This document shows positions 16,677-60,940 of a stretch of DNA of 64,000 nt, one piece after another. The first letter of the stretch is position 1. Each line of letters opens with the position of its first letter. The DNA is taken from positions 310,001-374,000 of the forward strand of contig CAIIXF020000005.1 in NCBI GenBank assembly GCA_903813345.2. The letters run 5' to 3'. The position numbers and the translations under genes were made by a program. The stretch is from Owenia fusiformis. Lineage: Eukaryota; Annelida; Polychaeta; Sabellida; Oweniidae. Below the pieces are notes generated by a model. The model worked only from the letters and a program-made list of their open reading frames with translations, did not search any database and was not told where the DNA came from.

Positions 16677-16694
16677 GTCATCTATGTTGTTCCC

Positions 16695-17574
16695 CTGAAA
16701 TAAAGTCATACATGCTGATGATTATATCAATTCATGACAAAACATTAAAATATTAAGGTGAAGCTTAAGTTCCAAGATGGCTGAAACCAGGATAAATGTA
16801 CAGTAAAACCTGTCTAATCCAAACGCCATTGGGACTGGCTAAAAGCGTTCAGATTAGGAGGTGTTCACATTGCAACACGAGGGGAAAGTCTACCCGCTTA
16901 TATACAACCTACCGCTGAGTAGGACATGCTAATATCGCCAATCTAATGTTTGGTAAACTACATCTCATAGGAAAATGGACAATAAAGGTAATATTGGGCC
17001 ACTATCAATTCCCTTAGATGGTTAGAATCGTTACTAAGATGTTCTAGCGGAATTGGCCTAGAATTATAGTTGAAATATATTTTTATGTCCAAATTAAGAG
17101 ATAAGTAAAACGTTTAATGGTTTTCGGTTTCTTTTCTCATTCATATTCGCTTTAATTGATAACCAGCCATACATAAGACATACCTGGGTCAGTAAATGTA
17201 TGTCATGTGCATAATATATTAAGTGTCAAACTTTTAGGTCAAAATAGCACTTCTGAACAGCTAAATCTTCACATAAACTTTGTGTTAAAAGAGCTGATGT
17301 TATTGATGTGATCGATGAGTAATATTTTAAAGATCCGAAATCACTTGAGTAAAATTTGTTGAGATCCGATGATATCGTCGAATTCATGACGTGCTGCTGA
17401 TGAAATAGTGTTAGGGTTACTTTTGGGAGTTTTCGAACCTTGATTTAATTGCCTTTATTAGAAGGGTTACTCGTTATTAATACTATTTTAACATTTTGAC
17501 CCAGACCACCCTATGCAGACAGAGCCTGTGGGAAATATTGGGTGCGGCGCAAATGAGCGGAGGGTGCGGAGCTA
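16695..17574. other. Upstream flank of GOLGA7
   Basis: No coding exon is recognised. The stretch should contain or approach the GOLGA7 promoter and a 5' noncoding exon. Apart from the transposon end at 16799-16880, nothing else is identifiable. Confidence 0.4.
16799..16880. mobile_element. End of a mariner/pogo-like MITE (fragment)
   Basis: TA followed by CAGTAAAACCTGTCTAATCC matches, in inverted orientation, the right end of the complete element at 29583-30053 and continues to match for about 80 bp through GATTAGGAGGTGTTCACAT. The second terminus was not found, so it is a partial or diverged copy. Confidence 0.75.
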
Positions 17575-29408: not shown

Positions 29409-29494
29409 TTGTACTAGATTGAGGAATGTCCAGTCTTTGCTGGTAAACAATCCAGAAGGGAAAGATGAAGTTGACTCTATACTCTGCATCTTAG
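29409..29494 (+). CDS. DNAAF9: DNAAF9 exon 1 (first exon seen)
   Basis: It encodes CTRLRNVQSLLVNNPEGKDE through SILCIL and ends in phase 1 at GTACAT. It follows TATTTTTCAG, so a short upstream exon with the start codon probably exists. Alternatively translation starts at the in-frame ATG 29386-29388. Confidence 0.75.
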
Positions 29495-32400
29495 GTACAT
29501 TTACCATTTAATGGAGTTACAAATTACTTATGTTTTCATGTCTGCATATTAAGATTTTGTGATTATATAATGTAGGTACATGTACAGTAGAACCGGTATA
29601 TCTGAACACCTGGCTAATCTGAACACCTTCCAATCTGAACACTTTTTTTCGGTCCCATTTTTTCCTCCCATTAACTCCCATATTAAAAAAACTTGAAATT
29701 TGAACACCTCTCAATTTGAACAGTGAACAGTCATATTTGAAAAATTAACCTGTCTGATCTGAACACTTTTCATAAAATTTCACATGTTTCATACAAAATT
29801 GCTCGAATATTGTTATATCAAAACTTTGGGAAAAAACTTAAATGGTCTTGATTAACCTATAATAGGACTCTCAAGCATGACTGGATTCATTTGAATTGAA
29901 TTTTCAAATTTCTGAAATGCCGTAAAGCTATGTGGTAAAATGAACTATAAATATGTACCGAGAATTTGCAAAAACCTCAAAATGTGAACACCTCCTAATC
30001 TGAACACTTTAAGCTGGTCCCAATGGTGTTCGGATTAGACAGGTTTTACTGTATATAGTATTGAGATATTTTGACCAAAATAAGTAAAATTAAGATTTTG
30101 CACAGCTGTAGAGAAAACCTGGATATTTTATATCGCTTATTTGATTAATATTATTAGAAAGATAAATTGATTCCTCATTTGCAGGCATTGATAGCAGATA
30201 CAACGATGGAACCAGAGAACTGGTGGATTATCTCTTGTTTGACTTCTTCAATACACGCAAAGCTGAGATTGAAAAGTTAGTCAAGTTTGTAGAATGCTCT
30301 GACTGAATAAGATTTTAGACTAATTAGTCTGATATTAATCACTGAGTCTCATGGAAGTAGATTGAGGGCTAAATCTTACAAATGATATACTTTTTCAGAC
30401 TAAAACTCAAATGAAGTCCAGAGTAATAAATATCCTAAATCTTTTGTTTTTGAGATCCTAGAATTAGATTGAAGATTGCCTCCATTTGTAAATGAGTATA
30501 ATCAACATGAATATTATAAATTGCACAAGTCTACCGTATTAAAATGAAATGGCATTTGGCATCCATCAGAGAGAAAAACTTGAATACAACATGTACTTGA
30601 TAGTGTAATTTAAACTTGTACTGATATTTGCTGTTGTAAATAAATTCTCACTCAATATGATATTTTTCAGATCTGGATACCCTGAGGAAGTCATAGATGG
30701 TAAGTAGACTTCTGTTCTATGACTTTATTATATTTTCCTGGTTGATAGGAGGTAAGATCTTATTATAGGTCTCTGATTTTCCAGTTTGTGTTCTTTGCCT
30801 GGTGATTGTGCTGTAATATTTTTATAAAATACCCGTTTTGTAGTGTATACATGTATTTTATTTTGTTTACCACCAATGGATTTGAGTAAAAATGTTAGTA
30901 ATAAATCACTATCACTAATAACTTAAATGCGAGTAGGTATTTACTAGTTTCACTCATTTGGATCAGATAGCATGGCGGGTATAGTAAAGTTCCCTTTAAC
31001 TGAAATATTCATCAGTTTTAGTTGTTCAATTTTCATATCACTCTTATGTATCCAATACTTATGCAAAGTAAAATATGTCCAGTAAAGGAAAATATTATAT
31101 GTCCAATACAAGAAAAGATATTTCCCTCTTTGTGATTTTATAACATGGGGTATATGGGGTATCTACCCCACCTAGAAGTCACATTTTCAAAAAATAAAAT
31201 TTTTCAAAGATACAAAGAAACCGTATTTCTAGATGCTCTTTTACATGTAGATTTCAAATATGACATCACTTTGACTTTGAATATTTAATGACGTAAATCA
31301 AGATGATTTCTACAGTACTTGCATCAAGTCTATTATTTTTGTAATCATAAAAGACAGACCCCAGATCTTCTTAAAGAAGTGGACATGTCCATTTATGTGT
31401 CCTTTTACAAACCACAGCCTTTAATAGAGTAAGATTCCCCTAAGCCAACTGAGCAGTAATGATAGATGATGTTGTCTTCTATATGATTGTGCAATAAACA
31501 AATGTAATTGTGCTTAATCTTATGATTGTGCATCATCAGCTTTGTGATTGTGCTATTTCAGATATGATTGTGCTGGTGAAGAAGCAATGTGTCCATGTTT
31601 ACTGCAATCCAATTAACTACATGTATCTGCTGCCTTACATTGCTCACTGGAGGAATCTTAGAATACATTGCCTTACTGATGAAAAGGTAGTATTTTTGTT
31701 GTCAGCTGAGCATACATAATATGGGTTATATCAGTTGGCTTTATTATTTTCTGATTTATAGGGGTTAACTTGAATTTTAGAATGTTACAACTTGTAAATA
31801 TTTGACTACATTAAGCCATCTATTAATTGTGTATGTAAGGATATTTTTTGTAGTCTTGCTTCTACCCTTTGATCTCATCAACGTTAACATAATCTTTTGG
31901 GAAGGTGTGTAGTTGGGGGGGGGGGGGGCTCACTAGCTCTTGTAGCTAAACTAGATGTAGTATGGAATATACTCATACTCAAATAAAGTAATTACATCTA
32001 ATGTAATGGAATATGAAACTTCGAAATTCTGTTATTTATTAACATTCTTAACGATAAATCATTATATATAATATGTTAACCATTGGGTATTATATTAGAG
32101 TTGAAGAAATGTTTTGATAGCATTTTTACTACATACTTCATTGCTCCAAGAACATAATAAATAAATCATAAATTTAAAACACAAACTCAATTGGATGATT
32201 TCAGTTCCAAGATGAAGAATATGCGGAGGAATTTAAAATTCACAGTTTTGTAACCATGACAACAGGCTGTTCTATGATTGGAATACCTTATAACAGTACA
32301 GGTAAGAATGCAAACTTTAATATCATAGGAATACCTTATAACAGTACAGGTAAGAATGCAAACTTTAATATCGTAGGAATACCTTATAACAGTACAGGTA

Positions 32401-35400
32401 AGAATGCAAACTTTAATATCATAGGAATACCTTATAACAGTTCATGTAAGAATGCAAACTTTAATATCATAGGAATACCTTATAACAGTACAGGTAAGAA
32501 TGCAAACTTTAATATCATAGGAATACCTTATAACAGTACAGGTAAGAATGCAAACTTTAATATCATAGGAATACCTTATAACAGTTCATGTAAGAATGCA
32601 AACTTTAATATCATAGGAATACCTTTAGTCATATAAATCCGACCGTTGTATGCTGTTCTTCGATATTCCTTGTTCCTATTTGGCTATTTATTTTTTATCA
32701 TTTTCTTAGCATATACGGTCGTAGATATTATAGCTGACAAATTGCGGTAAACGCTTTTCTGGCCTGTCTTGGTAACCATAGTTACCATACTAACCAAAGT
32801 CACACAAATTATCGAGTAATTATTTAGCTCCAATATCAAAGTGTTAAATCTTACCTTAGACATGTAAAACGCTTGATAATTGACGAAATATAATCAATTG
32901 AATTATATTTTCATTATCGCCCGCCATGTTGCTGAATGTTGTTTCCGGTAGTCTAAATGTGAAACATGAAACGAAACGGAATCGTAATTATTTATTACAC
33001 AGAGATCGATTCCAAAGCCGTTCTCTCATACTTATTACTTTTCTCATTTTGAAACAATAACTTTTCCAAATAGCTTCCCTTCTTAACGACACTGCTTCCC
33101 TTTCAACTGAATCTTCGTGTAACAAGTACTTATGATTTCGTTTAATATAGTTTTACATCTAGACTCAGTTTAACCCGGAAGTGACCTTGGCATGGCAAAA
33201 TGAAAAAATTTTAAAATTCAAGCGGCATGCTTATATTTCTTCAATTACCAAGCGTTTTACGTGTCTAAGGTAAGATTAAATACTTTATAGTTGAAGCAAA
33301 GAAATTTATTTATCATTTGTGTGAATTTGGTTGGGTAGACAGGCGAGGAAAGCATTTCCCGCAATTTAGATGCGCGGAGTGTGTATGACCCTAGTATGCA
33401 AGAAAATAAGAAAAAATAAATATCCAAATCAAAAAAAATAACAACAAATAACATCATACGAGGGTCAGATTTATATGACTAGAATACCTTATAACAGTAC
33501 AGGTAAGAATGCAAACTTTAATATCATAGGAATACCTTATAACAGTACAGGTAAGAATGCAAACTTTAATATCATAGGAATACCTTATAACAGTACAGGT
33601 AAGAATGCAAACTTTAATATCATAGGAATACCTTATAACAGTACAGGTAAGAATGCAAACTTTAATATCATAGGAATACCTTATAACAGTACAGGTAAGA
33701 ATGCAAACTTTAATATCATAGGAATACCTTATAACAGTACAGGTAAGAATGCAAACTTTAATATCATAGGAATACCTTATAACAGTACAGGTAAGAATGC
33801 AAACTTTAATATCATAGGAATACCTTATAACAGTACAGGTAAGAATGCAAACTTTAATATCATAGGAATACCTTATAACAGTACAGGTAAGAATGCAAAC
33901 TTTAATATCATAGGAATACCTTATAACAGTACAGGTAAGAATGCAAACTTTAATATCATAGGAATACCTTATAACAGTACAGGTAAGAATGCAAACTTTA
34001 ATATCATAGGAATACCTTATAACAGTACAGGTAAGAATGCAAACTTTAATATCATAGGAATACCTTATAACAGTACATGTAAGAATGCAAACTTTAATAT
34101 CATAGGAATACCTTATAACAGTTCATGTAAGAATGCAAACTTTAATATCATAGGAATACCTTATAACAGTACAGGTAAGAATGCAAACTTTAATATCATA
34201 GGAATACCTTATAACAGTACAGGTAAGAATGCAAACTTTAATATCATAGGAATACCTTATAACAGTACAGGTAAGAATGCAAACTTTAATATCATAGGAA
34301 TACCTTATAACAGTACAGGTAAGAATGCAAACTTTAATATCATAGGAATACCTTATAACAGTACAGGTAAGAATGCAAACTTTAATATCATAGGAATACC
34401 TTATAACAGTACAGGTAAGAATGCAAACTTTAATATCATAGGAATACCTTATAACAGTTCATGTAAGAATGCAACACCATGCCAGATGTGTGACATGTGC
34501 TGTCCTAGTCAAACATGTTTGAATCTATGGCTCTGTGCGGTCACTTATTAGGCATTACTTTACGTAGGTGAACTGAAAGCTAATTGTCACGAGGCCTTCG
34601 TGTTTTCCGTATTATACAAGATTTACAATGATTATCATTTGAATGATGAGAATAGGACACAAACAGCAGTTATTATTAAAACAGCCATTTGTAGAATTAA
34701 ACAACCTTGTAATGGGATTTTGATTATTTATTCAAAAGAAAACTAATTTTAAACTTGGCAAATATTACCCTGTCCCGCTATAGCATTATTGAGGTTACCA
34801 TAGCAACCATAACTTCAGAAATATTTGTAACCAACCAAAATTTTCATAATCTATAACCCAGCTACTGAAAATATTGTGCAAAATGAATGATTAACTTTTA
34901 AGTTAGAGCATTTTTATCAGGACCTCTGGATCGGCCCTTGTATATCTAACATAATTTTCATGTGACTTAACAATGAATTTTTGTATTTGTAAAATTTATT
35001 AAAGTGTCCTGGGCATATATTAATACAACATGTAGCTAAAATACACATGGTAATAAAATCTTAACGTATTAATATCATTCAATATTCTGATACATTTAAT
35101 ATTGGGTTCAAGGATATTGGGAGTTAAATGTCTTGTTAGGTGAATAAAACATATTTTAACAGATTTTAGTATTGTATCAAACAGTATTACCATGGGCTTT
35201 CAACTAGTCTAATTGAAAGCCCATAGTATTACTATACAGCCGATAAAATGGTTCAAAAAATCTCAGTTGCACATAAAAAGAATAAAATCGGAAAATTGAC
35301 ATTTGATATATATTAAGAGATTTCTAAATTGTCCTTATTGTGTATTGCAAACTTATATATTACATGTCATCTTCTTTTCATTACAGGGCAGAAGTTAGTA

Positions 35401-38400
35401 TTTGACAAGATGGTGATTGAAAGGTGGCCCATAGTACAAGCATTTGCTTTAGAAGGGTTTGGCAGGTTTGTTTTGCTTCTCAGCTAGAAAATATACCAAT
35501 TAATGATATCATAAGTTACTAAAATCAATTTATTCAATGTAAATACTTGCAGCTGGTTTTTAAGATTCTTACATTATTGTTGCTCAACAAAATGTTCTAA
35601 TACCCCATTTGGCTCAAAAATATATATATCCAGCTTTGCAGGATTACAATTATGTTCTTTTTTGTCTTTTAGAGGAGGTTTCTTCACTATGCATCATGAA
35701 GTGGTAGATGTAAGTCATTCTGTCAGCAAGTTGTATGATCTGATGGACCCTGTCTTTCTGGAGACTATCATCACAGAAGTAAGCTTTTCTGTTTATTTGT
35801 CATAGTTATTGTCTAATGATTCATACACCTGGCTATAGTACAAGTATTAGGGTTGTGTCCATTCTCCTGTTTAACATAAGATATCAATGTCGGTAGCTAC
35901 CAGATTTTGTTTCAGAGGACATTGCAGCCTCACATACACCTCCAAACGATATAACTAACATTGTTCATTCATATATTTCTAGCGTGTTAGGTTATTTGAG
36001 GGTCAGTGGGGCACCATGCTGAGTACAGTAGACATAGAAAGAACCAAAGATATGGCTCAATTGACAGAGAGTTATGTCTGTGAACCTTTAAGAACTTACT
36101 ACAACCATGGTAGAGTTGGTACTGCTAGATCAAATAAAGTGTAAGTTCAGATTAAATACGCATTTAAAAGTTTTGATGATTAGAGTGACACACTCTCATT
36201 AATTATGGAACCTTTATGAATTTTCATGTATACTGTATTCAAGATAATATGTACTTATATAGATGCACCAACAACTTGGAGTTTGGAGAAATATGTTTTT
36301 CACAGCATGCTCTCACCCCAAACCACTCAAAAATGCAATTGTAGAAATATCTTTGTCACAGCATCATCATTTTCAAAGTTTTCAGTAAAAAGGATGTATA
36401 AGATATATTGAAATTAGTGAAAGCATCAAGTTTTTTAAAAATCTAAAGACAATGTGATTGCACAGCAAACATTTCTCAATGTTGATTCAATGAAAAATCA
36501 ACATTGATTTTCCCAAGCATTGATAAAGCCATAATTGCCTTTGGGTTAATTTAGTGTTAAATCAAGCTTGATTCAGGCTTGAATCAATGATGTCAATTCA
36601 ACCCAGGGTCAAGTTAAGCTTGATTTCAAGCTTTATTCAGTGTTGATTTTTCAGGTTTGATTCAAGATTGAGGACATCAATGTTAAATCAAGCTTGATTT
36701 TAAGGTTGATTCAGGTTTGAGGTTTTATGTTAAATCATGCTTGATATCAAGATTAAATTAACAATGATTTGCCATCAACCTTGATTCAACCTTGAGAAAT
36801 GTTTGCTACATGTACAGTTTGGATGTTTGGGAATATTCTGAAATATTCCTGAGGTGAACATTTATTGACTATGTATTGTTTTAATTCAGGCTTGAGTCCC
36901 AGAGGCAGCCATATGTGTTGTTTGGCAGCCACTCTTCTAAAGCAACTCTTGATGTGGTCAAGTCTCAACCTACTTCCATCAATGGCACAATCACAGATGT
37001 TGGTCTTGGAGGCCAACATGCCAAACACATGGTGCGTGTTTCTCAGTGTTCCACTTTCTACAGACACAATTTGCATTTCAGTTTGCATAAAATAAGGAGG
37101 AGTAATTTAAATGACTTCTTTGTATACATACAGAATCATTCTCAGCAAAAACTCAAAACACACATTCCATATTTCTTGCACACCATGTAGTGATTGCAAT
37201 ATTTATGAAGGTAAACTTGCCAAACAAATGTGGTGACATATTGTTTTGTTTTTTTTATTATTTTTTTGTGATGGCAGTCGGCGTCTGGCATTCAGCACCT
37301 GTAACAAATGGTTTAGCATGTTAATAATGGCTTGTTGCTCTTTGTTTTGGAGAGCATGGACATAGTGAATTCATCTGTTTCACTTCAAGTATATACTGGC
37401 TGTTTCACATTACAGGTGTGCCAAGCTGTGTCTCCTAAAGGCCCTCTATGTTGTGCCAGGTCCTACTTCTTCACAAATAGCCACACCCCTCTGGGGAAGA
37501 ACAATAGCTTGGCAGATAAGACAGATTCTTCAGATATTAGGTAATGTCCTATTTCTATTTGTATATATACAAGTATAAGGGTTATGTACTAGTGTGGTCC
37601 CTTGAGAGATATTTCACCTAAATATACACATATTTCTCTTAGAATGAATCCAGTTTTTCAAACCAAATGGATATTTCTTATGTCCCTGACTGGAAATATT
37701 CTTCATGCTCTCTTAGATACGATAATATATATTTTTTCATTTACACCATTATGCCAGACGTTCAATACAAGGCAAATATTAAGAATATTTTTGGACATAA
37801 TTTTTGAATATATTTTGTTGCCAATGAGAATTTACAAAGAAACAGATTCAATGAAATATTTGGAAAACTAAGTGCTAGAAATCTTTGTTATCCTGACCTC
37901 CATGTACATTGGCTGGTTTGTTTTTGTAGATTATTAAATAGCCTGTATCTCTGCATGGTTGAAGCAGTGGCCTCATCCATAGAAACATATGCTCAAACAC
38001 TAAGTCTCTCAAAGGTAGGTTAACATTTGTTTGTTTTATATTTCTCAAAAAAGAGTTGTATTGTTATGTCTAGGGGCATAACCACGTCAGACAAATAGGC
38101 AAGCCAAATTAGACTACATGCAAGGCATAACCAGGGTAGGCAAATAGGCAAGCCAAATTAGACTACATGCAAGGCATAACCAGGGTAGGCAAATAGGCAA
38201 GCCAAATTAGACTACATGCAAGGCATAACCAGGGTAGGCAAATAGGCAAGCCAAATTAGGCTACATGCAAGGCATGGCATAACCACAGTAGGCAAATAGG
38301 CAAGCCAAATTAGACTACATGCAAGGCATAACCAGGGTAGGCAAATAGGCAAGCCAAATAAGACTACATGCAAGTAGTTGAAAATAAAAATATGTTGGTG

Positions 38401-50400: not shown

Positions 50401-53400
50401 TGACCCACTCAATACATACATGCAAGACAGGTATGTGGACATTTGAATAGGTGCTGTAACATCATGGGTTGACCCACTCAATACATACATGCAAGACAGG
50501 TATGTGGACATTTGAATAGTTGCTGTAACAGCATGTGTTGACCCACTCAATACATACATGCAAGACAGGTATGTGGACATTTGAATTGGAGCTGTAACAG
50601 CATGTGTTGACCCACTCAATACATACATGCAAGACAGGTATGTGGACATATGAATAGGAGCTGTAACAGCATGTGTTGACCCACTCAATACATACATGCA
50701 AGACAGGTATGTGGACATTTGAATAGGTGCTGTAACAGCCTGGGTTGACCCACTTAATACATACATGCAAGACAGGTATATGGACATTTGAATAGGTGCT
50801 GTAACAGCATGGGTTGACCCACTCAATACATACATGCAAGACAGGTATGTTGACATTTGAATAGGAGCTGTAACAGCATGTGTTGACCCACTCAATACAT
50901 ACATGCAAGACAGGTATGTGGACATTTGAATTGGTGCTGTAACATCATGGGTTGACCCACTCAATACATACATGCAAGACAGGTATATGGACATTTGAAT
51001 AGGTGCTGTAACAGCATGGGTTGACCCACTCAATACATACATGCAAGACAGGTATGTGGACATTTGAATAGGAGCTGTAACAGCATGGGTTGACCCACTC
51101 AATACATACATGCAAGACAGGTATATGGACATTTGAATAGGTGCTGTAACAGCATGGGTTGACCCACTCAATACATACATGCAAGACAGGTATATGGACA
51201 TTTGAATAGGTGCTGTAACAGCATGGGTTGACCCACTCAATACATACATGCAAGACAGGTATATGGACATTTGAATAGGTGCTGTAACAGCATGGGTTGA
51301 CCCACTCAGTACATACATGCAAGACAGGTATGTGGACATTTGAATTGGTGCTGTAACATCATGTGTTGACCCACTCAATACATACATGCAAGACAGGTAT
51401 GTGGACATTTGAATTGGTGCTGTAACAGCATGTGTTGACCCACTCAATACATACATGCAAGACAGGTATGTGGACATTTGAATTGGAGCTGTAACAGCAT
51501 GTGTTGACCCACTCAATACATACATGCAAGACAGGTATGTGGACATATGAATAGGTGCTGTAACAGCGTGTGTTGACCCACTCAATACATACATGCAAGA
51601 CAGGTATGTGGACATATGAATAGGTGCTGTAACAGCATGTGTTGACCCACTCAATACATACATGCAAGACAGGTATGTGGACATTTGAATAGGTGCTGTA
51701 ACAGCATGTGTTGACCCACTCAATGCATACATGCAAGACAGGTATGTGGACATTTGAATAGGTGCTGTAACAGCGTGTGTTGACCCACTCAATACATACA
51801 TGCAAGACAGGTATGTGGACATTTGAATAGGTGCTGTAACAGCATGTGTTGACCCACTCAATACATACATGCAAGACAGGTATGTGGACATATGAATAGG
51901 AGCTGTAACAGCATGTGTTGACCCACTCAATACATACATGCAAGACAGGTATGTGGACATTTGAATAGGTGCTGTAACATCATGGGTTGACCCACTCAAT
52001 ACATACATGCAAGACAGGTATGTGGACATTTGAATTGGAGCTGTAACAGCATGTGTTGACCCACTCAATACATACATGCAAGACAGGTATGTGGACATTT
52101 GAATAGGTGCTGTAACAGCATGTGTTGACCCACTCAATACATACATGCAAGACAGGTATGTGGACATATGAATAGGAGCTGTAACAGCATGTGTTGACCC
52201 ACTCAATACATACATGCAAGACAGGTATGTGGACATTTGAATAGGTGCTGTAACATCATGGGTTGACCCACTCAATACATACATGCAAGACAGGTATGTG
52301 GACATATGAATTGGAGCTGTAACAGCATGTGTTGACCCACTCAATACATACATGCAAGACAGGTATGTGGACATTTGAATAGGTGCTGTAACAGCATGTG
52401 TTGACCCACTCAATACATACATGCAAGACAGGTATGTGGACATATGAATAGAAGCTGTAACAGCATGTGTTGACCCACTCAATACATACATGCAAGACAG
52501 GTATGTGGACATTTGAATTGGTGCTGTAACATCATGGGTTGACCCACTCAATACATACATGCAAGACAGGTATGTGGACATTTGAATTGGAGCTGTAACA
52601 GCACGTGTTGACCCACTCAATACATACATGCAAGACAGGTATGTGGACATTTGAATTGGAGCTGTAACAGCATGTGTTGACCCACTCAATACATACATGC
52701 AAGACAGGTATGTGGACATTTGAATTGGAGCTGTAACAGTATGTGTTGACCCACTCAATACATACATGCAAGACAGGTATGTGGACATTTGAATTGGTGC
52801 TGTAACATCATGGGTTGACCCACTCAATACATACATGCAAGACAGGTATATAGACATTTGAATAGGTGCTGTAACAGCATTTGTTGACCCACTCAATACA
52901 TACATGCAAGACAGGTATGTGGACATTTGAATAGGTGCTGTAACAGCGTGTGTTGACCCACTCAATACATACATGCAAGACAGGTATGTGGACATTTGAA
53001 TAGGTGCTGTAACAGCATGTGTTGACCCACTCAATACATACATGCAAGACAGGTATGTGGACATTTGAATTGGTGCTGTAACATCATGGGTTGACCCACT
53101 CAATACATACATGCAAGACAGGTATGTGGACATTTGAATAGGTGCTGTAACAGCATGTGTTGACCCACTCAATACATACATGCAAGACAGGTATGTGGAC
53201 ATTTGAATTGGAGCTGTAACAGCATGTGTTGACCCACTCAATACATACATGCAAGACAGGTATGTGGACATTTGAATAGGAGCTGTAACAGCGTGTGTTG
53301 ACCCACTCAATACATACATGCAAGACAGGTATGTGGACATATGAATAGGAGCTGTTACAGCATGTGTTGACCCACTCAATACATACATGCAAGACAGGTA

Positions 53401-56400
53401 TGTGGACATTTGAATTGGTGCTGTAACATCATGGGTTGACCCACTCAATACATACATGCAAGACAGGTATGTGGACATTTGAATAGGTGCTGTAACAGCA
53501 TGTGTTGACCCACTCAATACATACATGCAAGACAGGTATGTGGACATATGAATAGGTGCTGTAACAGTGTGTGTTGACCCACTCAGTACATACATGCAAG
53601 ACAGGTATGTGGACATATGAATAGGTGCTGTAACAGCGTGTGTTGACCCACTCAATACATACATGCAAGACAGGTATGTGGACATTTGAATAGGTGCTGT
53701 AACAGCATGTGTTGACCCACTCAATACATACATGCAAGACAGGTATGTGGACATTTGAATAGGAGCTGTAACAGCGTGTGTTGACCCACTCAATACATAC
53801 ATGCAAGACAGGTATGTGGACATTTGAATAGGTGCTGTAACAGCATGTGTTGACCCACTCAATACATACATGCAAGACAGGTATGTGGACATTTGAATAG
53901 GTGCTGTAACAGCATGTGTTGACCCACTCAGTGCATACATGCAAGACAGGTATGTGGACATTTGAATAGGTGCTGTAACAGCATGTGTTGACCCACTCAA
54001 TACATACATGCAAGACAGGTATGTGGACATTTGAATAGGTGCTGTAACATCATGGGTTGACCCTCTTAAAGAGACATTCCTGGCCAGACCATTTCTGTCC
54101 TCATATATATATACATTCCGTCAATTTAAAAATGGTGTGGTGACTGAACAGTACTTAAAAAACAGAATGCCCAGACAACACAGGAGAATACTTGCTCAGT
54201 TCCGAACAGGAAGTCTCCACTTAAATATAGAGACAGGTAGATGGAACAATACACCGCTGCAAGAACGAAAATGTATTCTCTGTGATAATGATTGTATTGA
54301 GGATGAGATACACTTTTTGACTCAATGTGAACATTATAAGGACATAATGAAAGAGTTTTATGACAATGTTAAAGTAACAGCCCCCCATATAAACATTAAC
54401 TCAAATGATGGCCTGGGTACACTGATCAGTCTTATACATGACAAAAACATCCAAAATTTATTGGCTTCAACTCTATTTAAAATGTGGCAAAAAAGGAAAT
54501 TCAATATTGAGAGGGTCTGAAATGATCAAAACAACTGCTCAACAGATATTTATTCTAGTCAACTTAAAATGCTTACTCTAAAAACATGCTGATATTATAT
54601 TTGAACAGTGCAATAATTGTATATTATAGAATAGTATATTTATTTATTATTTAATGGACATTGTTCCAGATGGTAGAAGGACCTAAGTGTCTCATAAGCC
54701 GACACCGGCTGGTAGTGTTTTAGTTTACTTTGTATTTGACATTGTATGTATACTTTTAACACTAGTGACACTATAATAAAATATTTTAATAATAATAATA
54801 ATAATATATATTTAGCAAAACACAGGAAATGTTTTAATATAGTCAATATTGATCATTTAAAAATGTGGTGTTCATTTCCAGTAAGCTGCCATCTTTTAAG
54901 ATTTCACTCAGGAAGTGATGTCATTGACTCTCAACCTTCATAACCTTACCTATATCAGTATAGGAAAATAGCACAAAAACACTTCTAGACAAGGGGTCCT
55001 TATTTTAAGTGCAAAAATATTTTCAGAGCTTGTCAGCTTAGAATAAAAGGAGAGACTCTTAGAAGGATTAAATCATAGACAAACTTGAAAAAGAATATTC
55101 AGCTTGTTTTGTAATTCTTAATAGCTCCTTACCCAAGGCTATATGTAAAGTTGAGAGTCGATTACATCAATTTCTGAGTGAAATCTTAAAAGATGGCAGC
55201 CTTCTGGAAATGAGCACTACGTTTTTAAATGATCAATATTGCCCATATCAAAACATTTTTCTGTGTTTTTGTAAACATGGAAAATATATATATGATAATT
55301 GCTACCATCTTTTAGGAGGTCTGGCAAGGAATATACCTTTAATACATACATGTAAAATATGTATGTGGACATTGAATATTTTCAGGTTGACACTACCTCA
55401 CCTCCTTGAGCAATGTGGTCAGGGTTGGGTGAATATTTACACAAACATGTACTAGTAATTCATTTTCAGGTTGACACTACCTCATCTCCTTGAGCAATGT
55501 GGTCAGGGTTGGGTGAATAATATTGTGTTTACCAGCTCCTTGAACCCAAAGAACCAGGACTTAGCAGATGTCCAGCATCTCATTAGGGCTGTCAATTCAG
55601 ATGTAGCCCTACTACTGGCACCAAAAGGAGAGGTTACCAGGTGAGAATATTCAAAAGTTGATCATTTAATGGTCATTTATTAGTGTCACAGAAAAAAACT
55701 ACACTGTTGCACTTTCTGAGGTTCATTTAGCATAAAGTCAATTGGGATAAAACATTCAATTTCTTAAATTGTTTTAGATGTTCACCCATCCCACGATTAA
55801 TTTCACAGTAATAAATTATAGAGTAACACTTATTTTATTTCAGCTGTAATAGAACATTAAATTGTTCCACTTGTTTTAATTTTCACAGAATGCGTAATTG
55901 TTTCCCAAACTCAAATTACCAAGATTAAATGAGATGTTTTTGTTTTCTAAATTTTGCAATATTGTTATTTGTACACAATGTTTCATTGGCAGGAAACCCC
56001 CAAAGGTGTTCATAACAGCCTTAGAATGTAATTGTTTTGATTTATATTGATGTATGTTTATTCCAGGACCCCTGATTTGGATCTTATCCTGTCAGACACA
56101 GCCTATAACAGAAATGATCTTGCCAGAGCACGTCATCTCTCATACCCTGGCTGGTGAGTTCGCAGATTTCATTATTACACTTAATAAGTTACGGGCCCTC
56201 TAAGGCTCATGAAGCATGAACACCCCGTGTATTGTTTCAGTTAATACATAAGGATTCAATAAGAAAAACAGACGAAAAACAATTTTGATATGATTTAAAT
56301 ACAACTTTCTCACATAATCAAAATACAATTTTGTTACATTATCATATTATTGAATTAAAATACTGCACTTAACTCAAAAAAAGACTCTGATTTTTATTTG

Positions 56401-58801
56401 TGGTATTCATTCATAAGTAATGCAGAAGTGACAAAGGGAAAGGACCAAATATTGTTACAGAACACAGCAAGAAAAAGAAAACACCTAACTGTACACCAGT
56501 CATAAGGTGTGTTGTTTATTGTTTCAGGTCAATTTGTGTCTTCATTAGAGACAGACTAGAGCCCACCATGCAGGAGACATGCCTTAGTAATAGTAAATTG
56601 TATTCTATGTTTATTGTTTCAGGTCAATTTGTGTCTTCATTAGAGACAGACTAGAGCCCACCATGCAGGAGACATGCCTTAAGTTCTCACAACCACTAGA
56701 TAGACAGAGGTTTGCTTCTCGGTTGAGAGGTATGTTCTTATATTCTTCATTAAAGGGGCAACAAAGACTGGAGAGGGTAAAACTTTGGAAGTATTTTTCA
56801 AAAAGCATGTCAGTGTTTCCCATACACATCTTCATTGAGGTATCTGCTCAAATATAGAATTAATTGAAGATTAAGATGCAGAAATGCACAAATCCATTAG
56901 ATTTGAAAAGGGGGAGTTCTGTCAGATAACCATAAGATCAAAAGATGTCAAAATAAAGCTATTTAAGGAATTTTTATTTAGAAATAAACAATAGAACTAT
57001 GAGAGCAGAAATGTTTTAAAATGGAAAAATAAAGAGATTATTATTAGGAACAAAAGAGCATGTAAGAATAGCTCAAGCATAAAACAACTGTGAAGTGTTG
57101 ATATACTTTTCTGTAGGTTTGAAGGCATTACTGAAGAGGAACTCCTTTGAAGGAAATATATATGTAGTGAAAGGCAGATCAAGATTTACAGGTTAGTAAG
57201 GGAGTAAAATGATTTGACTTACAGCTAAGTGGGGCTCAGACACTTTCATGATTTCTCGTGATAAAAACAAACATGAATGGTTATACATGCAAAAGTGCCG
57301 AAAGGTAAAATGCAGATTATTACAAAATACACCAAGGAAAACAAACCATTATATCCAAAAGTATGATCTAATTGATAACTTCATTCTCAGAGTTAACATG
57401 GTTAAGCTATACATTAAAACTAATTCATAAATAAATGAAAATGTTGCTTTCAGACTCACAGAGTATGATGGAGTTTGAGTATGTGACGTTGAGTGGGTCA
57501 CTGAGTCTAGTCCCTGCGGAGGTACAGCCCACCCCTCCCTCTAGGAGTAATGGACCATCCACACAAACCAATGGCCACTCTAACTGTACTGTGTTCATAG
57601 GAGTTGACCTTCAGGAAGAAGTTCTCAAGAACTGGCTGAGGCAATGTGCTCCACAGGTTTGCAACATCACTTGCTGAATTCAAAATTGCTCTCTTTAGGA
57701 TCGAGGAGTAATACAAATTTTCTGACCTCTACTCAAACTACTGACTGTATTAATATTTCTATCATGTTATGTCGAAAATGACAAGTGATTTGACGAAACA
57801 TGTTTTGTGGATTTATTCTTCAGAAAGCTGCTATTTACTAGTTCAGTTTTGTTGTTTGTTTACACCCCCAAAATGCAATCTGATTTTTGACGCCGTTTCA
57901 GTGCCAAATTTCGGCACCAAATGGACTGACTAGTTCGGTAGTAAATTTTTGTGTCGGAAGGTTTCGGTGCCGAAACGGTGCCGGAACAGTGCCGAACTTT
58001 TTCGATGCCGAAACGGCGTCAAATTATATTGGCTGTGTAGAGATTGGTCATTCACCAAATATGCCATTTACTTTGTAGAAACCTGTTAAGAAGAACCACA
58101 AGAAAAAGTTTGATCTGACACCAGCAGAGAAACAGAAGATACATGTAAGTAAAAGCAGGAATTAATGAAAGATACATGTAAGTAAAAGCATGAATTAAAA
58201 GTTCACTCACAAGAACATACAACGGTTTTTCAGTAAATGTTTTTACATCTTATCCTTAAATGTTGCCTTTCCAAAATTTTTGAAACCAATACAATTTCTC
58301 TATAATATGCTAATATGCAATACTGTGTATTGTATCTTACAGAAGGACCATCACCTAGAGCCTCCCCCTGAAGGATGGTTCTACAATGGAACACATTTTG
58401 TCTGTATGACTGGAGAGAAATCTGACAAACACCCTGGTATGCTAAAAAAATTGTTTATGACAGTCTATTCTTAAAGAATTGAAGTCAAGGTTTAATTGGA
58501 TTGTGTTGCCTTAATACTCCAGTCTAATTTGTCATAATCATGACTTTTTGGAAAATCATACAGTGTGTCTCATTGAACTTTTTGTAAGTGTAACATTTTT
58601 TGAGGCACACTGTAGTTATTAATGTCTCATTATTCCTAGCAACATTTAGTGAGATGTTAATTTTACCAAAAAATAAAACTTTTTCTATTTTTTGCAGATA
58701 TGGATAAATTCATAGCTGATTACCTGACTGAAGTGAACAATAAAATTGATAAACACAATGCTGACATTGATGCTCAAGTATATCTGGATCTCTTTGACTA
58801 G
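29409..58801 (+). CDS. DNAAF9: DNAAF9 (C20orf194/Shulin homologue), gene span
   Basis: DNAAF9 is a cytoplasmic factor that packages outer-arm axonemal dynein before delivery to cilia (known from Tetrahymena Shulin and human DNAAF9). I placed 30 exons by homology to the vertebrate protein with GT-AG borders. All phases join, giving 3,439 coding bases; human has about 1177 residues. Diagnostic blocks include IDSRYNDGTRELVDYLLF, YLLPYIAHWRN, WPIVQAFALEG, GQHAKHM, VSPKGPL, TLYDVP, SFYDG, TGVPGSHKENL, GAVTACVDPLNTYM, SYPGW, NWLRQCAP and EGWFYNGTHFV. The start is uncertain: the first exon seen has a good acceptor (TATTTTTCAG), but an in-frame ATG at 29386 would give 1153 residues without a further exon. 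The introns are rich in minisatellites, several of which include splice junctions. Confidence 0.93.
29583..30053. mobile_element. MITE with mariner/pogo-like termini in intron 1
   Basis: The 471-bp element starts TACAGTAGAACCGGTATATC and ends in the reverse complement of TACAGTAAAACCTGTCTAAT. The interior repeats [A/T]ATCTGAACAC words. It shares one terminus with the fragment at 16799-16880. The TA ends fit Tc1/mariner/pogo insertion. Confidence 0.85.
30185..30275 (+). CDS. DNAAF9: DNAAF9 exon 2
   Basis: Acceptor TTTGCAG; encodes IDSRYNDGTRELVDYLLFDF and on to AEIEK, one of the best-conserved blocks. Donor is GTTAGT after GAAAA, which restores EKSGY with the next exon. Confidence 0.93.
30671..30699 (+). 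CDS. DNAAF9: DNAAF9 exon 3 (microexon, 29 bp)
   Basis: Encodes SGYPEEVID; acceptor TTTTTCAG, donor GTAAGT. The short exon is supported by phase on both sides and by the matching EEVLDD segment of the vertebrate protein. Confidence 0.9.
31562..31686 (+). CDS. DNAAF9: DNAAF9 exon 4
   Basis: Encodes MIVLVKKQCVHVYCNPINY then LLPYIAHWRNL through TDEK. The exon start ATATGATTGTGC has three look-alikes in the preceding 85 bases of intron (near 31484, 31521 and 31543). A G14 run lies downstream in the intron at 31915-31928. Confidence 0.94.
32205..32301 (+). CDS. DNAAF9: DNAAF9 exon 5 (first donor of the repeat array)
   Basis: Encodes FQDEEYAEEFKIHSFVTM then TTGCSMIGIPYNST; acceptor GATTTCAG. The last 22 bases and the donor CAG|GTAAGA are repeated downstream every 48 bp, so the 3' border given here is only the first of seven in-frame options. 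Confidence 0.9.
32280..32625 (+). repeat. Splice-donor minisatellite, block 1 (48-bp unit, 7 donors)
   Basis: The unit is 22 bp of exon 5 (GGAATACCTTATAACAGTAC, then AG) plus 26 bp of intron (GTAAGAATGC to ATCATA). Donors lie at 32302, 32350, 32398, 32446, 32494, 32542 and 32590; the fourth and seventh read CAT|GTAAGA instead of CAG|GTAAGA. The period is a multiple of three and the exon frame stays open through the block, each unit adding 16 residues (GKNANFNIIGIPYNST). Confidence 0.95.
32626..33481. mobile_element. 856-bp DNA transposon splitting the exon-5 repeat array
   Basis: Termini are inverted repeats starting TAGTCATATAAATC[C/T]GACC. The 9-bp repeat-unit sequence GAATACCTT flanks both sides (32617-32625 and 33482-33490) as target duplication, a length seen in Mutator-like elements. 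A second pair of inverted repeats lies inside (about 32844-33279, containing CATGTAAAACGCTTG), either subterminal repeats or a nested element. Inserted after the array had formed. It brings an in-frame stop (TAA at 32634-32636) for any read-through of block 1. Confidence 0.88.
33482..34473 (+). repeat. Splice-donor minisatellite, block 2 (48-bp unit, 21 donors)
   Basis: This continues block 1 beyond the transposon. Donors run from 33503 to 34463 at exact 48-bp spacing. Most read CAG|GTAAGA; those near 34079, 34127 and 34463 read CAT|GTAAGA. The array ends where the unit changes at GCAACACCATGCC. The 358-codon open frame over it is a by-product of the period. Confidence 0.95.
34474..35386. other. 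Remainder of intron 5
   Basis: No coding sequence is recognised. A 51-bp hairpin at 35183-35233 pairs AGTATTACCATGGGCTTTCA with its near-perfect complement; the rest is AT-rich intron. Confidence 0.6.
35387..35465 (+). CDS. DNAAF9: DNAAF9 exon 6
   Basis: Encodes GQKLVFDKMVIERWPIVQ then AFALEGFG, a highly conserved block. Acceptor CATTACAG, donor GTTTGT. Confidence 0.94.
35673..35778 (+). CDS. DNAAF9: DNAAF9 exon 7
   Basis: Encodes GGFFTMHHEVVDVSHSVSKL then YDLMDPVFLETIITE; acceptor GTCTTTTAG, donor GTAAGC. Confidence 0.93.
35983..36140 (+). CDS. DNAAF9: DNAAF9 exon 8
   Basis: Encodes RVRLFEGQWGTMLSTVDIER and ends at ARSNK; acceptor TATTTCTAG, donor GTAAGT. FEGQWGT corresponds to FEHQWTS of vertebrates. 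Confidence 0.92.
36465..36807. mobile_element. MITE made of TCAAGCTTGATT repeats in intron 8
   Basis: AGCAAACATTTCTCAA at the left end is inverted at the right end (TTGAGAAATGTTTGCT). The interior consists of degenerate copies of a near-palindromic word, TCAAGCTTGATT, so the whole element can fold on itself. Confidence 0.75.
36890..37031 (+). CDS. DNAAF9: DNAAF9 exon 9
   Basis: Encodes LESQRQPYVLFGSHSSKATL and ends GGQHAKHM at donor GTGCGT. PYVLFGSHS and GGxxAKHM match vertebrate DNAAF9. Confidence 0.94.
37416..37540 (+). CDS. DNAAF9: DNAAF9 exon 10
   Basis: Encodes VCQAVSPKGPLCCARSYFF through DKTDSSDI; acceptor CATTACAG, donor GTAATG. Confidence 0.94.
37930..38014 (+). CDS. DNAAF9: DNAAF9 exon 11
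   Basis: Encodes LLNSLYLCMVEAVASSIETY then AQTLSLSK; a helical segment. Acceptor TTTTTGTAG, donor GTAGGT. Confidence 0.92.
38074..38374. repeat. 49-bp minisatellite in intron 11
   Basis: About six copies of a unit with AGGCATAACCAGGGTAGGCA, then AATAGGCAAGCCAAATTAGA; spacing is exactly 49 bp between 38123, 38172 and 38221. It is wholly intronic. Confidence 0.95.
38534..38658 (+). CDS. DNAAF9: DNAAF9 exon 12
   Basis: Encodes AEDDVKMCLEASCKKRDVSL through DAVDNHG; acceptor TGTTTTTAG, donor GTTGGT. Confidence 0.92.
39006..39163 (+). CDS. DNAAF9: DNAAF9 exon 13
   Basis: Encodes SVSITDNESLKMVKYACLTL then YDVPS and GSLVFGESFLESSIQV; acceptor GATTTCAG, donor GTAAGT. The TLYDVP and GSLVFGESFL blocks match the vertebrate protein. 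Confidence 0.94.
39428..39498 (+). CDS. DNAAF9: DNAAF9 exon 14
   Basis: Encodes DGSKRLDSELTVLTRNVPRF then ITWT; acceptor TTTCCAG, donor GTAAGG. Confidence 0.92.
39722..39866 (+). CDS. DNAAF9: DNAAF9 exon 15
   Basis: Encodes TPNEEQGLVERMKQLTQQST through LCNPDE; a charged, poorly conserved stretch. Acceptor AATTGTAG, donor GTATGA. Confidence 0.88.
40047..40150 (+). CDS. DNAAF9: DNAAF9 exon 16
   Basis: Encodes GELTLYERSIVFINSRHGPT through FESLSFYDG; acceptor TTTTCCAG, donor GTGAGT. Confidence 0.93.
40651..40840 (+). repeat. 95-bp tandem duplication across the exon-17 acceptor
   Basis: Copy 1 (40651-40745) and copy 2 (40746-40840) each contain TTTTGCATTT[T/C]AG followed by the first 72 bases of exon 17 (GATTCACC...). 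Copy 1 has its own AG acceptor at 40672-40673. Splicing there would insert 95 bases, shift the frame and meet a stop within the second copy, so only the copy-2 acceptor (40768) yields the conserved protein. Confidence 0.93.
40769..40915 (+). CDS. DNAAF9: DNAAF9 exon 17
   Basis: Encodes DSPSVVAFVIIRYNKELCSS and continues to KSKAYKAFFRE; acceptor GCATTTCAG, donor GTAAGT. Its 5' half exists as an additional truncated copy 95 bp upstream. Confidence 0.92.
41364..41443 (+). CDS. DNAAF9: DNAAF9 exon 18
   Basis: Encodes VLPLWRKESHTPSMELLTEL then HDNIKQ; acceptor GTTATTAG, donor GTAAGT. Confidence 0.92.
41640..42310. repeat. Dispersed repeat with GTCT microsatellite and 100-bp units
   Basis: It begins near GAAGTTCAGAGGGATATAGG, followed by (GTCT)n at about 41659-41682, then GGGCAATAACTCAAATGCCA. 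Three diverged units of roughly 120-150 bp follow with the core AATTTTGTTCATATTTGGTA. As I recall, this arrangement is common in marine invertebrate, notably mollusc, genomes; it is one of the few taxonomic hints here. Confidence 0.7.
42609..42816 (+). CDS. DNAAF9: DNAAF9 exon 19
   Basis: Encodes HSHLQLQYTNTTSAKATPL through NLPNLHTFLDHFEG and SGNFDDSNQ; acceptor TTCTGCAG, donor GTTTGT. Confidence 0.92.
42917..43067. mobile_element. 151-bp MITE with TTAA target duplication (complete copy)
   Basis: TTAA at 42913-42916 and 43068-43071 flanks AGGAACATTCCTGGCCAAAC...GGTCTGGCCAGGCCT, whose ends are inverted repeats. It is an unbroken relative of the element at 54070-55338. Confidence 0.88.
43282..43370 (+). 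CDS. DNAAF9: DNAAF9 exon 20 (P-loop-like segment)
   Basis: Encodes LVVTILTGVPGSHKENLCTT then LANLSKEEG. The strand-loop-helix pattern ILTGVPGSHKEN resembles a nucleotide-binding P-loop but lacks the canonical GK[ST], as does the vertebrate protein, so binding is doubtful. Acceptor TTGCTTACAG, donor GTGGGT. Confidence 0.92.
43453..44069. repeat. 27-bp minisatellite in intron 20
   Basis: About 22 copies of a unit with CATATGCTTCAATATTGCAT then GTTAGGC. The period is divisible by three, which produces overlapping open frames (up to 191 codons) that are not genes. Variant units replace GCTTCA with TTTTCA or end in CACTTTGG. Confidence 0.96.
44145..44300 (+). CDS. DNAAF9: DNAAF9 exon 21
   Basis: Encodes WVVLRQPLDNTEAFNAESL then HGSLYQTYHAQKKRKPGS and KMRALIVTPG; acceptor TGTATTTTAG, donor GTCAGT (weaker than the rest). 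Phase and homology support it. Confidence 0.9.
44460..45375. mobile_element. Compound inverted-repeat region in intron 21
   Basis: A 109-bp hairpin (44497-44605) pairs GGTCAACTGGCAAAATTGTA with its complement. Related words, GGTCAACCGGCAAAATTGTA near 44951 and TAGCGGTCAACAGTATAC near 44912 and 45355, recur across 900 bp. It looks like a cluster of related fold-back elements. Confidence 0.6.
45376..46371. other. Rest of intron 21
   Basis: No exon is recognised. It includes an imperfect inverted motif around TATTCCCGCTGACATCACAT near 45900. It ends in the acceptor AAATTACAG at 46363-46371. Confidence 0.5.
46372..46497 (+). CDS. DNAAF9: DNAAF9 exon 22 (source of the 69-bp array)
   Basis: Encodes FTDIVEVVRAVMTHPDKEV then LRIGAVTACVDPLNTYMQD, matching the vertebrate GAITACVEPMSCYM block. 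Its last 55 bases and the donor CAG|GTATGT are the seed of the array that follows. Only this first donor keeps the frame: the repeat reads YVDI and a TGA just after it. Confidence 0.94.
46443..54065 (+). repeat. Splice-donor minisatellite, 69-bp unit, 110 donors
   Basis: The unit is the last 55 bp of exon 22 (GAATAGGAGCTGTAACAGCA to CAAGACAG) plus 14 bp of intron (GTATGTGGACATTT). Donors run from 46498 to 54019, 7,521 bp, exactly 109 x 69 with no net indel. Variants are substitutions at a few places (TTGAATAGG or TTGAATTGG; GGTGC, GGAGC or GTTGC; ACAGCATGTG or ACATCATGGG). The ACATCATGGG marker recurs every 276 bp from about 51979 to 53083, a four-unit higher-order repeat. A last degenerate unit is split by the TTAA element and resumes at 55343 (AATACATACATG..GTATGTGGACAT). 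Confidence 0.97.
54120..54806 (+). mobile_element. 5'-truncated LINE tail nested in the fold-back element
   Basis: Comparison with the intact element at 42917-43067 shows extra sequence between ATTCC and ATATTTAGC. The insert contains the end of a retrotransposon ORF, a 3' UTR and a terminal AAT microsatellite (about 54786-54805), the usual form of a 5'-truncated non-LTR retrotransposon. Confidence 0.82.
54137..54520 (+). pseudogene. C-terminal part of a non-LTR retrotransposon ORF2
   Basis: The open frame of 127 codons (the frame is also open upstream to the insertion edge) includes RTGSLHLNIETGRW, CILCDNDCIEDEIHFLTQCE, then HYKDI. This is the pattern RxGxxxLxxExGR..CxxC..xEDExHFLxxCxxY, the zinc-binding tail found after the reverse transcriptase domain in many animal LINEs. 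The polymerase part is absent, so the copy is dead. The undisturbed frame suggests a young insertion. Confidence 0.82.
55383..55469 (+). repeat. 84-bp duplication across the exon-23 acceptor (upstream copy)
   Basis: CAG|GTTGACACTACCTCACCTCC at 55386 repeats at 55470 with one substitution over the first 56 exon bases. Reading on from the upstream acceptor meets TAG (ATG TAC TAG) before the real exon. The upstream copy can therefore only be a decoy or pseudo-exon. Confidence 0.93.
55470..55640 (+). CDS. DNAAF9: DNAAF9 exon 23
   Basis: Encodes LTLPHLLEQCGQGWVNNIVF through HLIRAVNSDVALLLAP and EVT; acceptor CATTTTCAG, donor GTGAGA. It matches the vertebrate DQCSQG and SLIRAAN blocks. Confidence 0.94.
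56067..56153 (+). CDS. DNAAF9: DNAAF9 exon 24
   Basis: Encodes TPDLDLILSDTAYNRNDLAR then ARHLSYPG; acceptor TTATTCCAG, donor GTGAGT. Confidence 0.93.
56513..56681 (+). repeat. 95-bp tandem duplication across the exon-25 acceptor
   Basis: TTTATTGTTTCAG followed by the first 59 bases of exon 25 (GTCAATTTGTGTCTTCATTA...) occurs at 56528 and again at 56623. Use of the first acceptor would add 95 bases and shift the frame to an early stop. The first copy ends CTTA|GTAATA, which by chance looks like a donor, so a 59-bp pseudo-exon is conceivable but also frame-shifting. Confidence 0.93.
56623..56729 (+). CDS. DNAAF9: DNAAF9 exon 25
   Basis: Encodes SICVFIRDRLEPTMQETCL, then FSQPLDRQRFASRLR; acceptor ATTGTTTCAG, donor GTATGT. 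The region is shorter than in vertebrates after SYPGW. Confidence 0.9.
57117..57191 (+). CDS. DNAAF9: DNAAF9 exon 26
   Basis: Encodes LKALLKRNSFEGNIYVVKGR then SRFT; acceptor TTTCTGTAG, donor GTTAGT. FxGNIYxxxG matches vertebrates. Confidence 0.93.
57454..57656 (+). CDS. DNAAF9: DNAAF9 exon 27
   Basis: Encodes SQSMMEFEYVTLSGSLSLVP, a Pro/Ser/Asn-rich linker, then CTVFIGVDLQEEVLKNWLRQ and CAPQ; acceptor GCTTTCAG, donor GTTTGC. Confidence 0.94.
57887..58023. mobile_element. Small MITE with TGACGCCGTTTC termini in intron 27
   Basis: TGACGCCGTTTC at the left end is the complement of GAAACGGCGTCA at the right end. The interior is built of GTGCC/GGCAC words and is locally GC-rich. Size is about 137 bp. 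Confidence 0.75.
58079..58144 (+). CDS. DNAAF9: DNAAF9 exon 28
   Basis: Encodes KPVKKNHKKKFDLTPAEKQK then IH, a basic segment; acceptor CTTTGTAG, donor GTAAGT. Confidence 0.92.
58137..58198 (+). repeat. 33-bp tandem duplication across the exon-28 donor
   Basis: AGATACAT|GTAAGTAAAAGCA occurs at 58137 and 58170, each copy with the exon end and the donor. Use of the second donor would add 33 bases that include an in-frame TAA, so only the first is productive. Confidence 0.93.
58343..58436 (+). CDS. DNAAF9: DNAAF9 exon 29
   Basis: Encodes KDHHLEPPPEGWFYNGTHFV then CMTGEKSDKHP, matching the conserved vertebrate GYFYNGTQFV block; acceptor TCTTACAG, donor GTATGC. Confidence 0.95.
58698..58801 (+). 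CDS. DNAAF9: DNAAF9 exon 30 (terminal)
   Basis: Encodes MDKFIADYLTEVNNKIDKH and ends YLDLFD with stop TAG at 58799-58801; acceptor TTTTTTGCAG. The acidic YxDLF ending matches the HDLFE end of vertebrate DNAAF9. Confidence 0.95.
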
Positions 58802-60244: not shown

Positions 60245-60940
60245 TAATATTTATAATTGATAAATGTATATATTGTTTAATTTGACCTACAATATTTGCA
60301 CAAGGTACATTCTACTGTATAGTTGTAAGAAATAAGTAATAAGATTATAGCCTAGTTGTAGAAATAATACTAGCTAGTTATCTTTTATGGATTTTATATT
60401 TAACATGTGTACAACACATTTCTTCAGGTACACCTTACTATGTGTACACCTCCTGTCCAATTTTGGTGTTCCATTGCCAATTGATATATTGTCACCACTT
60501 TTTGTGAATACCTGGTAATATGCTAGTATGTAGTAAGAGCTGTGTCCAGTATAAAAGCAAAAGATAGGGTCATGTGATGGCATTCTTCCATGCACTTTAT
60601 TGTATCCAATCCACTCATGTAATACACGCAAATGTATAGCCTATACAAAAGTCACTAAAATTTACTGCTGTGAGTTACAAATGTAAATATCAGATTCTAG
60701 ATTGATTTTTTTGTTTGTTTACTGTAAATGCTTGTTATTGTATAAAGTTGAATGAAATATAAATTGAATTGCAAAGAAAAACATTAAAATTGTTATACAT
60801 TTTGTTATTCAAAAGAATGAAAATCTTCAGAATCAATTGGTTACTTCATTTCTTAGTTCATATTGTATGATACTTAACTACCAATTATGTAGGGTTGTAA
60901 TCCACTTGCATGTTTTATTGCACCATTGGGTACTGTATAG
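60245..60940. other. Intergenic AT-rich stretch
   Basis: No gene or repeat is recognised before the minisatellite. Confidence 0.45.

Follow-up and report, generated by a model that had tools for sequence, protein, structure and literature searches.

Six of the 58 internal splice junctions of DNAAF9 in the annelid Owenia fusiformis lie in tandem duplications with exon sequence on one side and intron sequence on the other, and arrays of the same kind are present in unrelated genes, at dynein and myosin loci. The best reading, and in our judgement a probable one, is that local tandem duplication is frequent in this genome, is tolerated at junctions, and is followed in some cases by growth into minisatellites. 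About one in 20 of the exons sampled outside DNAAF9 (15 of 330) carries such an array, and copy numbers across these arrays grade from two to more than 100. In an array anchored in an exon, unlike an ordinary minisatellite, the original copy can be told from the others and both limits of the first duplication can be located, and the graded series makes testable both the birth of minisatellites and the choice of the spliceosome among many identical sites.

DNAAF9 and its duplicated junctions

The window, that is, the whole stretch of 64,000 nucleotides analysed, corresponds to C5:310001-374000, and the genome searched amounts to 498 Mb. The gene carrying all six junction duplications was mapped by the fit of reading frame and splice sites, giving 30 exons and 29 introns. 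Its joined exons match four DAAF9 Pfam models, namely, DAAF9_N (E = 1.8e-86), DAAF9 (2.3e-111), DAAF9_2 (9.6e-90) and CobW_C_DAAF9 (4e-23), as well as the general CobW_C model, which bears out the identification as DNAAF9 made in a preliminary description of this DNA. The match begins at DAAF9_N profile position 21, and therefore only the first exon or exons, upstream, are missing from the map. The gene and the features discussed below are as follows (origin of each call in brackets).

29409..58801, plus strand, DNAAF9 gene, 30 mapped exons (exon model and Pfam profile matches)
32273..32625, plus strand, exon-5 donor array, first seven copies of the 48-bp unit (TRF, reading)
32626..33481, no strand assigned, palindromic mobile element splitting the exon-5 array (genome search, reading)
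33482..34474, plus strand, exon-5 donor array, other 21 copies (TRF, reading)
40650..40843, plus strand, exon-17 acceptor duplication, 2 x 95 bp (TRF, own finder, reading)
46443..54063, plus strand, exon-22 donor array, 110 x 69 bp (TRF, genome search, copy alignment)
54070..55338, no strand assigned, insert inside the exon-22 array with imperfect inverted ends and TTAA flanks (reading)
55378..55519, plus strand, exon-23 acceptor duplication, 58 bp at spacing 84 (own finder, reading)
56513..56681, plus strand, exon-25 acceptor duplication, 74 bp at spacing 95 (own finder, reading)
58136..58198, plus strand, exon-28 donor duplication, 2 x 33 bp (TRF, own finder, reading)

The duplicated donors are those of exons 5 (48 bp, 28 copies), 22 (69 bp, 110 copies) and 28 (33 bp, two copies), and the duplicated acceptors those of exons 17 (95 bp, two copies), 23 and 25. 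All six, as first described, are recovered by our own finder, and TRF lists those of exons 5, 17, 22 and 28. The lengths initially given for the units (48, 69, 33, 95, 84 and 95 bp) are correct as spacings, but exons 23 and 25 do not consist of simple head-to-tail units, as a spacer separates their copies of 58 bp (98% identity) and 74 bp (100%), respectively. Moreover, five of the 29 introns are affected rather than six, since the exon-22 donor and the exon-23 acceptor bound one and the same intron (22). The exon-17 copies are 96% identical, and the frame is kept by use of the second acceptor, with an exon start at 40769; the functional starts of exons 23 and 25 are 55470 and 56623, and the exon-28 copies, 97% identical, have their true donor after 58144. 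Tandem duplication of whole exons was considered and rejected, each of the six units containing a single mapped junction.

If minisatellites are defined as head-to-tail repeats of about 10-100 bp in many copies, those of exons 5 and 22 belong to this class, the other four cases being two-copy only. Both are arrays across an exon-intron border with donor-bearing units (28 copies, five of them weaker, and 110 copies), which makes them candidate splice-donor minisatellites. The exon-5 unit comprises 21 bp of exon and 27 bp of intron, with the true donor after 32301, and reads CAG/GTAAG in 23 of the 28 copies and the weaker CAT/GTAAG in the other five. A mobile element of about 855 bp, palindromic and presumably MITE-like, divides the copies 7 + 21; a 501-bp piece of it has at least 40 long matches in the genome at 95-100% identity, a count that includes its own copy and covers the 40 candidates scored out of 321.

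The exon-22 unit is composed of 55 bp of exon and 14 bp of intron, the true donor lying after 46497. All 110 copies are in register and read CAG/GTAT (97 GTATGT and 13 GTATAT); they represent 56 distinct units, with 0-5 mismatches per copy. Their mean identity is 0.954-0.959 across all 23 lags tested, and this flat profile indicates that the array holds no copied blocks; identical neighbours are slightly in surplus, 7-9% at lags 1, 2 and 4, and mostly 2-7% beyond. In a genome search with the unit, 51 of the 51 matches found fall inside the array. The 1.27-kb insert is followed by a decayed array copy (about 55339-55378), directly abutting the exon-23 copy, and intron 22 is nearly all array: besides array, insert and exon-23 copy, it comprises only about 34 bp before exon 23. 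One antisense frame is open for 2,540 codons across 46443-54063, which easily arises by chance because the 69-bp unit is stop-free in that frame.

Other arrays are present in the window. A GOLGA7/ERF4-like gene occupies 2086-16721 on the minus strand (the piece at 2434-2604 passes the Pfam Erf4 cut-off, and two others fall below it), and its long intron contains a 92-bp array of 142 copies (2624-15716, TRF), which stops about 20 bp short of the acceptor; exon sequence was looked for in it and none seen. Downstream of DNAAF9, a 39-bp array of 46 copies (60926-62690, TRF) is tied to no mapped exon.

Arrays at dynein and myosin loci

The sample taken outside DNAAF9 consisted of 10 kb at all 18 dynein loci and at 10 listed myosin loci, that is, 280 kb. 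The former group the 80 matches, among those listed, of a profile search for the dynein heavy chain (PF08393), and the latter stem from a search with the myosin head profile (PF00063), which gave at least 92 matches with 65 of 210 candidates scored. The 28 loci were picked regardless of repeats, the myosin ones by the presence of several matches within 10 kb. Among the myosin-head matches, twelve neighbouring ones at C9:37986009-37994334 cover about the same profile positions (18-84) and resemble what may be an alternative-exon cluster in a muscle myosin gene.

Exons of the sampled loci were modelled by paralogue similarity and splice-site scores; the gene finder called false exons within mobile repeats and arrays. 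We discarded 16 of the 236 dynein exons and 2 of the 112 myosin exons and adjusted two modelled exon ends manually. A single array-finding method was applied to all samples, a diagonal search of our own, which was adopted because blastn self-comparison missed short spacings such as that of exon 28. When 9 of the 18 dynein stretches were Markov-shuffled as a control, this search returned no array in the resulting 90 kb. Arrays touching modelled exons were then judged by eye. Fifteen junction-spanning arrays were accepted, 12 among 220 dynein exons and three among 110 myosin exons.

L004, donor, 140 bp, two copies
L008, acceptor, about 72-87 bp, eight copies
L009, donor, 41 bp, 12 copies
L010, donor, 39 bp, 2.4 copies; acceptor, 43 bp, two copies
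L011, acceptor, about 153 bp, two copies (unit of 154 bp in the frame analysis)
L015, donors, 59 bp, seven copies, and 30 bp, seven copies
L017, donor, 121 bp, two copies; acceptor, 125 bp, two copies
L018, acceptors, 71 bp, five copies (borderline), and 46 bp, two copies
L021, donor, 34 bp, four copies (4 exon bases)
L023, donor, 40 bp, three copies
L028, acceptor, 259 bp, four copies

Two further old dynein cases, the acceptors L009 1950 and L014 2495, were found by blastn only and stand outside the 15. The feature, first presented as one of DNAAF9, is hence not peculiar to it, and the graded copy series proposed for that gene (2, 28 and 110) is confirmed there and accompanied by arrays of 2 to 12 copies elsewhere. 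What seems to be the same donor (SLLSN/R) is duplicated in two dynein paralogues (L010 2009-2103 and L017 3622-3868) with units of 39 and 121 bp, and, given such unlike units, the two events are apparently independent. An effect of the chromosome end was considered as well, the window lying 310 kb into a 42.5-Mb contig, yet it was rejected, as the sampled loci with the feature sit at least 0.8 Mb from contig ends; no telomere repeat was seen in the 600 bases read at the contig start.

Chance or junction bias

With regard to frequency, it had been assumed at the outset that minisatellites rarely include splice sites. Under a null model in which each array is reduced to a single unit and that unit is placed randomly in tolerated sites (wholly intronic or spanning one junction), about one in six arrays is expected to do so by chance in exon-rich genes (10.1 of 63), and this premise falls. 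The number observed at the 28 loci is 15 of 63 (P = 0.057), with 12 of 39 arrays spanning a junction at the dynein loci against 6.9 expected (P = 0.02), and 3 of 24 at the myosin loci against 3.2 (P = 0.66). DNAAF9 alone, a gene picked for looking striking, displays 6 of 11 against 1.8 (P = 0.0035) and is above its share (6 of 58 junctions versus 15 of 604; Fisher P = 0.007), while all data together, including DNAAF9 as the source of the question, give 21 of 74 against 11.9 (P = 0.003).

Over the filters tried outside DNAAF9, P ranges from 0.02 to 0.11, and from 0.05 to 0.11 when borderline cases are omitted. In the two families, units of at least 25 bp yield 15 of 45 against 9.2 (P = 0.024), and arrays at least 93% identical yield 8 of 28 against 4.8 (P = 0.08), or 14 of 37 against 6.4 with DNAAF9. 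The excess is larger if arrays are not collapsed (15 against 8.9, P = 0.02; 6 against 1.1 in DNAAF9). The arrays L018 1322 and L021 3701 were counted as junction cases with only about 3-4 exon bases; omission of the former alone leaves 14 against 10.1 (P = 0.11), and omission of both, with at least 7 bases required on each side, 13 against 8.9 (P = 0.08). Conversely, L008 6171 and L011 6023, with 1-3 exonic bases, were kept as intronic, and counting L008 6171 as a junction case gives 16 against 10.5 (P = 0.04). The L010 4816 array (89 bp, about 14 copies), which starts about 16 bp past a donor, was also counted as intronic.

Nine arrays were excluded from these counts, one of them being the latter part of the exon-5 array, which would otherwise have been counted twice. 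The other eight were excluded by eye as mobile-element repeats or mis-called exons (L003 3631, L006 5843 and 9331, L011 6138 and 6505, L014 4835, L027 4502 and window 41977-42185). This mobile-element screen left out wholly intronic arrays, and extending it to them would increase the proportion of junction cases. Repeats that contain internal tandem copies and have ATGGCGGCC-like ends were noticed at 41977-42185, L011 6444-6758, L014 4798-5387 and L027 4502-5236; by eye, they look like one or more dispersed elements, and a simple gene finder takes them for exons.

A junction-biased mechanism had been put forward from the DNAAF9 cases. Active bias of duplication to splice junctions, for instance where DNA-RNA hybrids form during transcription or where breaks occur close to exon ends, would account for the surplus in DNAAF9, the excess at the dynein loci and among the longer units, the figures for the most similar arrays and the pooled count, but the myosin loci are at expectation, the two outside families taken unfiltered give P = 0.057, or 0.11 and 0.08 with borderline arrays omitted, and DNAAF9 was picked post hoc. 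Furthermore, junction duplications may be recognisable for longer than intronic ones because selection would hold the exon half of the functional copy, and this longer detectability could alone yield a mild excess. We therefore regard active bias as unlikely, and junction targeting was not retained as the main reading, the evidence outside DNAAF9 being suggestive at best. The data do not establish a strong junction bias; a mild excess is reasonably likely, without being firmly shown outside DNAAF9, where the dynein and myosin halves disagree.

Codon changes and use of the copies

Unit lengths are divisible by three in 8 of 23 cases (the 21 counted arrays and the two old ones), as by chance. 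The codon analysis covered 15 of these 23, copies less than 80% alike being skipped, and the offsets used were 27 of 28 for exon 5, 109 of 110 for exon 22 and 4 of 6 for L015 5037. In the multi-copy arrays and one old two-copy case, 39 distinct codon changes alter the amino acid and 23 are silent, a changing share of 63% for a random expectation of 67-76%. Because frame preference is absent and change is near-unconstrained, the array copies look untranslated, and we infer that they evolve neutrally.

The young two-copy cases show another pattern. The 13 exon differences observed among exons 17 and 23, L004, L011 and the L017 acceptor are all silent, and the copies of exon 25, exon 28 and the L017 donor have zero exon differences; compared with the multi-copy arrays, this gives a Fisher P of 2e-5 for a grouping made after seeing the data. 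All-silent differences are not predicted by simple neutrality, and standing allelic variation or constraint is needed. Translation of both copies is unlikely because the units of the dynein two-copy cases (140, 154 and 125 bp) would shift the frame, and also because older copies (L009, L014) decayed freely. The pattern rather suggests that the young copies may carry old allelic exon differences, acquired as alleles of a highly variable species exchanged sequence. In an extended proposal, which we consider rather unlikely, a 1.5- to 2-fold junction bias would combine with copies exchanging with exon alleles, and the two-copy state would be a stage reached by many exons and the starting point of splice-site minisatellites.

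As to splice-site choice, splicing at the distal site would introduce a stop in every DNAAF9 case but exon 5 (five of six), where the frame remains open. Exon-proximal acceptors score 13.6, 11.1 and 11.7 versus 11.7, 9.8 and 11.7 for the distal ones, on a score trained on DNAAF9 exons. Were the tandem sites nevertheless in use as alternative donors or acceptors, either repeats would be added to the protein or expression would be tuned through the decay of mis-spliced RNA. Tandem splice sites are reportedly used in such a way in the human 6-16 minisatellite. The full donor sequence is indeed kept in 23 of the 28 exon-5 and 97 of the 110 exon-22 copies, the exon-5 frame is open through the first seven copies with 16 residues gained per copy, and the silent differences of the young cases would fit too. 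This explanation is nonetheless very unlikely in view of the absent frame preference, the near-unconstrained change in multi-copy arrays, the frame-breaking units of the three dynein two-copy cases richest in silent changes, and the frameshifts or stops in the older copies of L009 and L014.

Proposed origin and growth of the duplications

Intron gain or replacement by tandem genomic duplication could be considered for intron 22, which is almost entirely made of copies of the exon-22 end, with so little other sequence and with a decayed array copy adjoining the exon-23 copy. It appears highly improbable, as the repeat is not continued in exon 23, which a duplicated AGGT exon piece would need, and as the other four introns contain much unique sequence. 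An assembly artefact is the least credible explanation: long near-identical arrays are prone to mis-assembly, and the assembly sequence is what was examined here, but copies differ in most two-copy cases, the exon-22 array has its 56 distinct units and flat identity and all its matches at one locus, and the feature is seen again at many loci.

Frequent and tolerated duplication is thus the reading that we favour. The genome would make and keep many local tandem duplications, with units mostly of about 30-150 bp. When the copied piece includes one junction, the extra copy would become intronic, following the donor or preceding the acceptor. As the added copies fall on the intron side, the exon-proximal site can still serve, and we infer that it is the one chosen; with that original site usable, an unaltered mRNA could still be made, and the duplication would be tolerated like an intronic one. 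Some duplications would then expand by slippage or unequal exchange into minisatellites with dozens of splice-site copies. The presence of the feature in a repeat-blind sample, its near-random frequency outside DNAAF9, the copy series, the absent frame preference, the near-unconstrained codon changes, the stops expected from distal splicing and the scores of the exon-proximal acceptors count for this proposal, whereas the DNAAF9 surplus, the excesses at dynein loci, among units of at least 25 bp and in the pooled data, and the all-silent differences count against it.

Comparison with known systems

The human gene most relevant to exons 5 and 22 is, we assume, 6-16/IFI6, whose minisatellite reportedly has a much shorter unit than those of DNAAF9. 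As cited in PMC2572611, a minisatellite multiplies a splice donor in an interferon-induced human transcript (Nucleic Acids Res 1995;23:1854). As far as that account goes, the human array and those of DNAAF9 exons 5 and 22 are alike in that a tandem array multiplies a donor, but the former concerns one gene, whereas the Owenia arrays have longer units, involve donors and acceptors in several genes, and reach 110 donors.

In the potato RdRp gene, a tandem genomic duplication over an intron-exon border gave rise to a new spliced intron, according to the part of PMC4974935 consulted. Its unit, like those of exons 17, 23 and 25, runs from the end of an intron into the start of the following exon; the potato gene gained a spliced intron, whereas the DNAAF9 duplications show no new one. 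Intron gain from exonic proto-splice sites likewise leaves exon-derived tandem copies within an intron, as in DNAAF9, but creates new introns from exonic sites, whereas the site copied in DNAAF9 already existed. A limited literature search found no genome-wide study of junction-spanning duplications, although one may still be in print. Donor minisatellites and junction-crossing duplications are already in print; possible novelties are their abundance in the Owenia fusiformis genome and the length of the exon-22 array.
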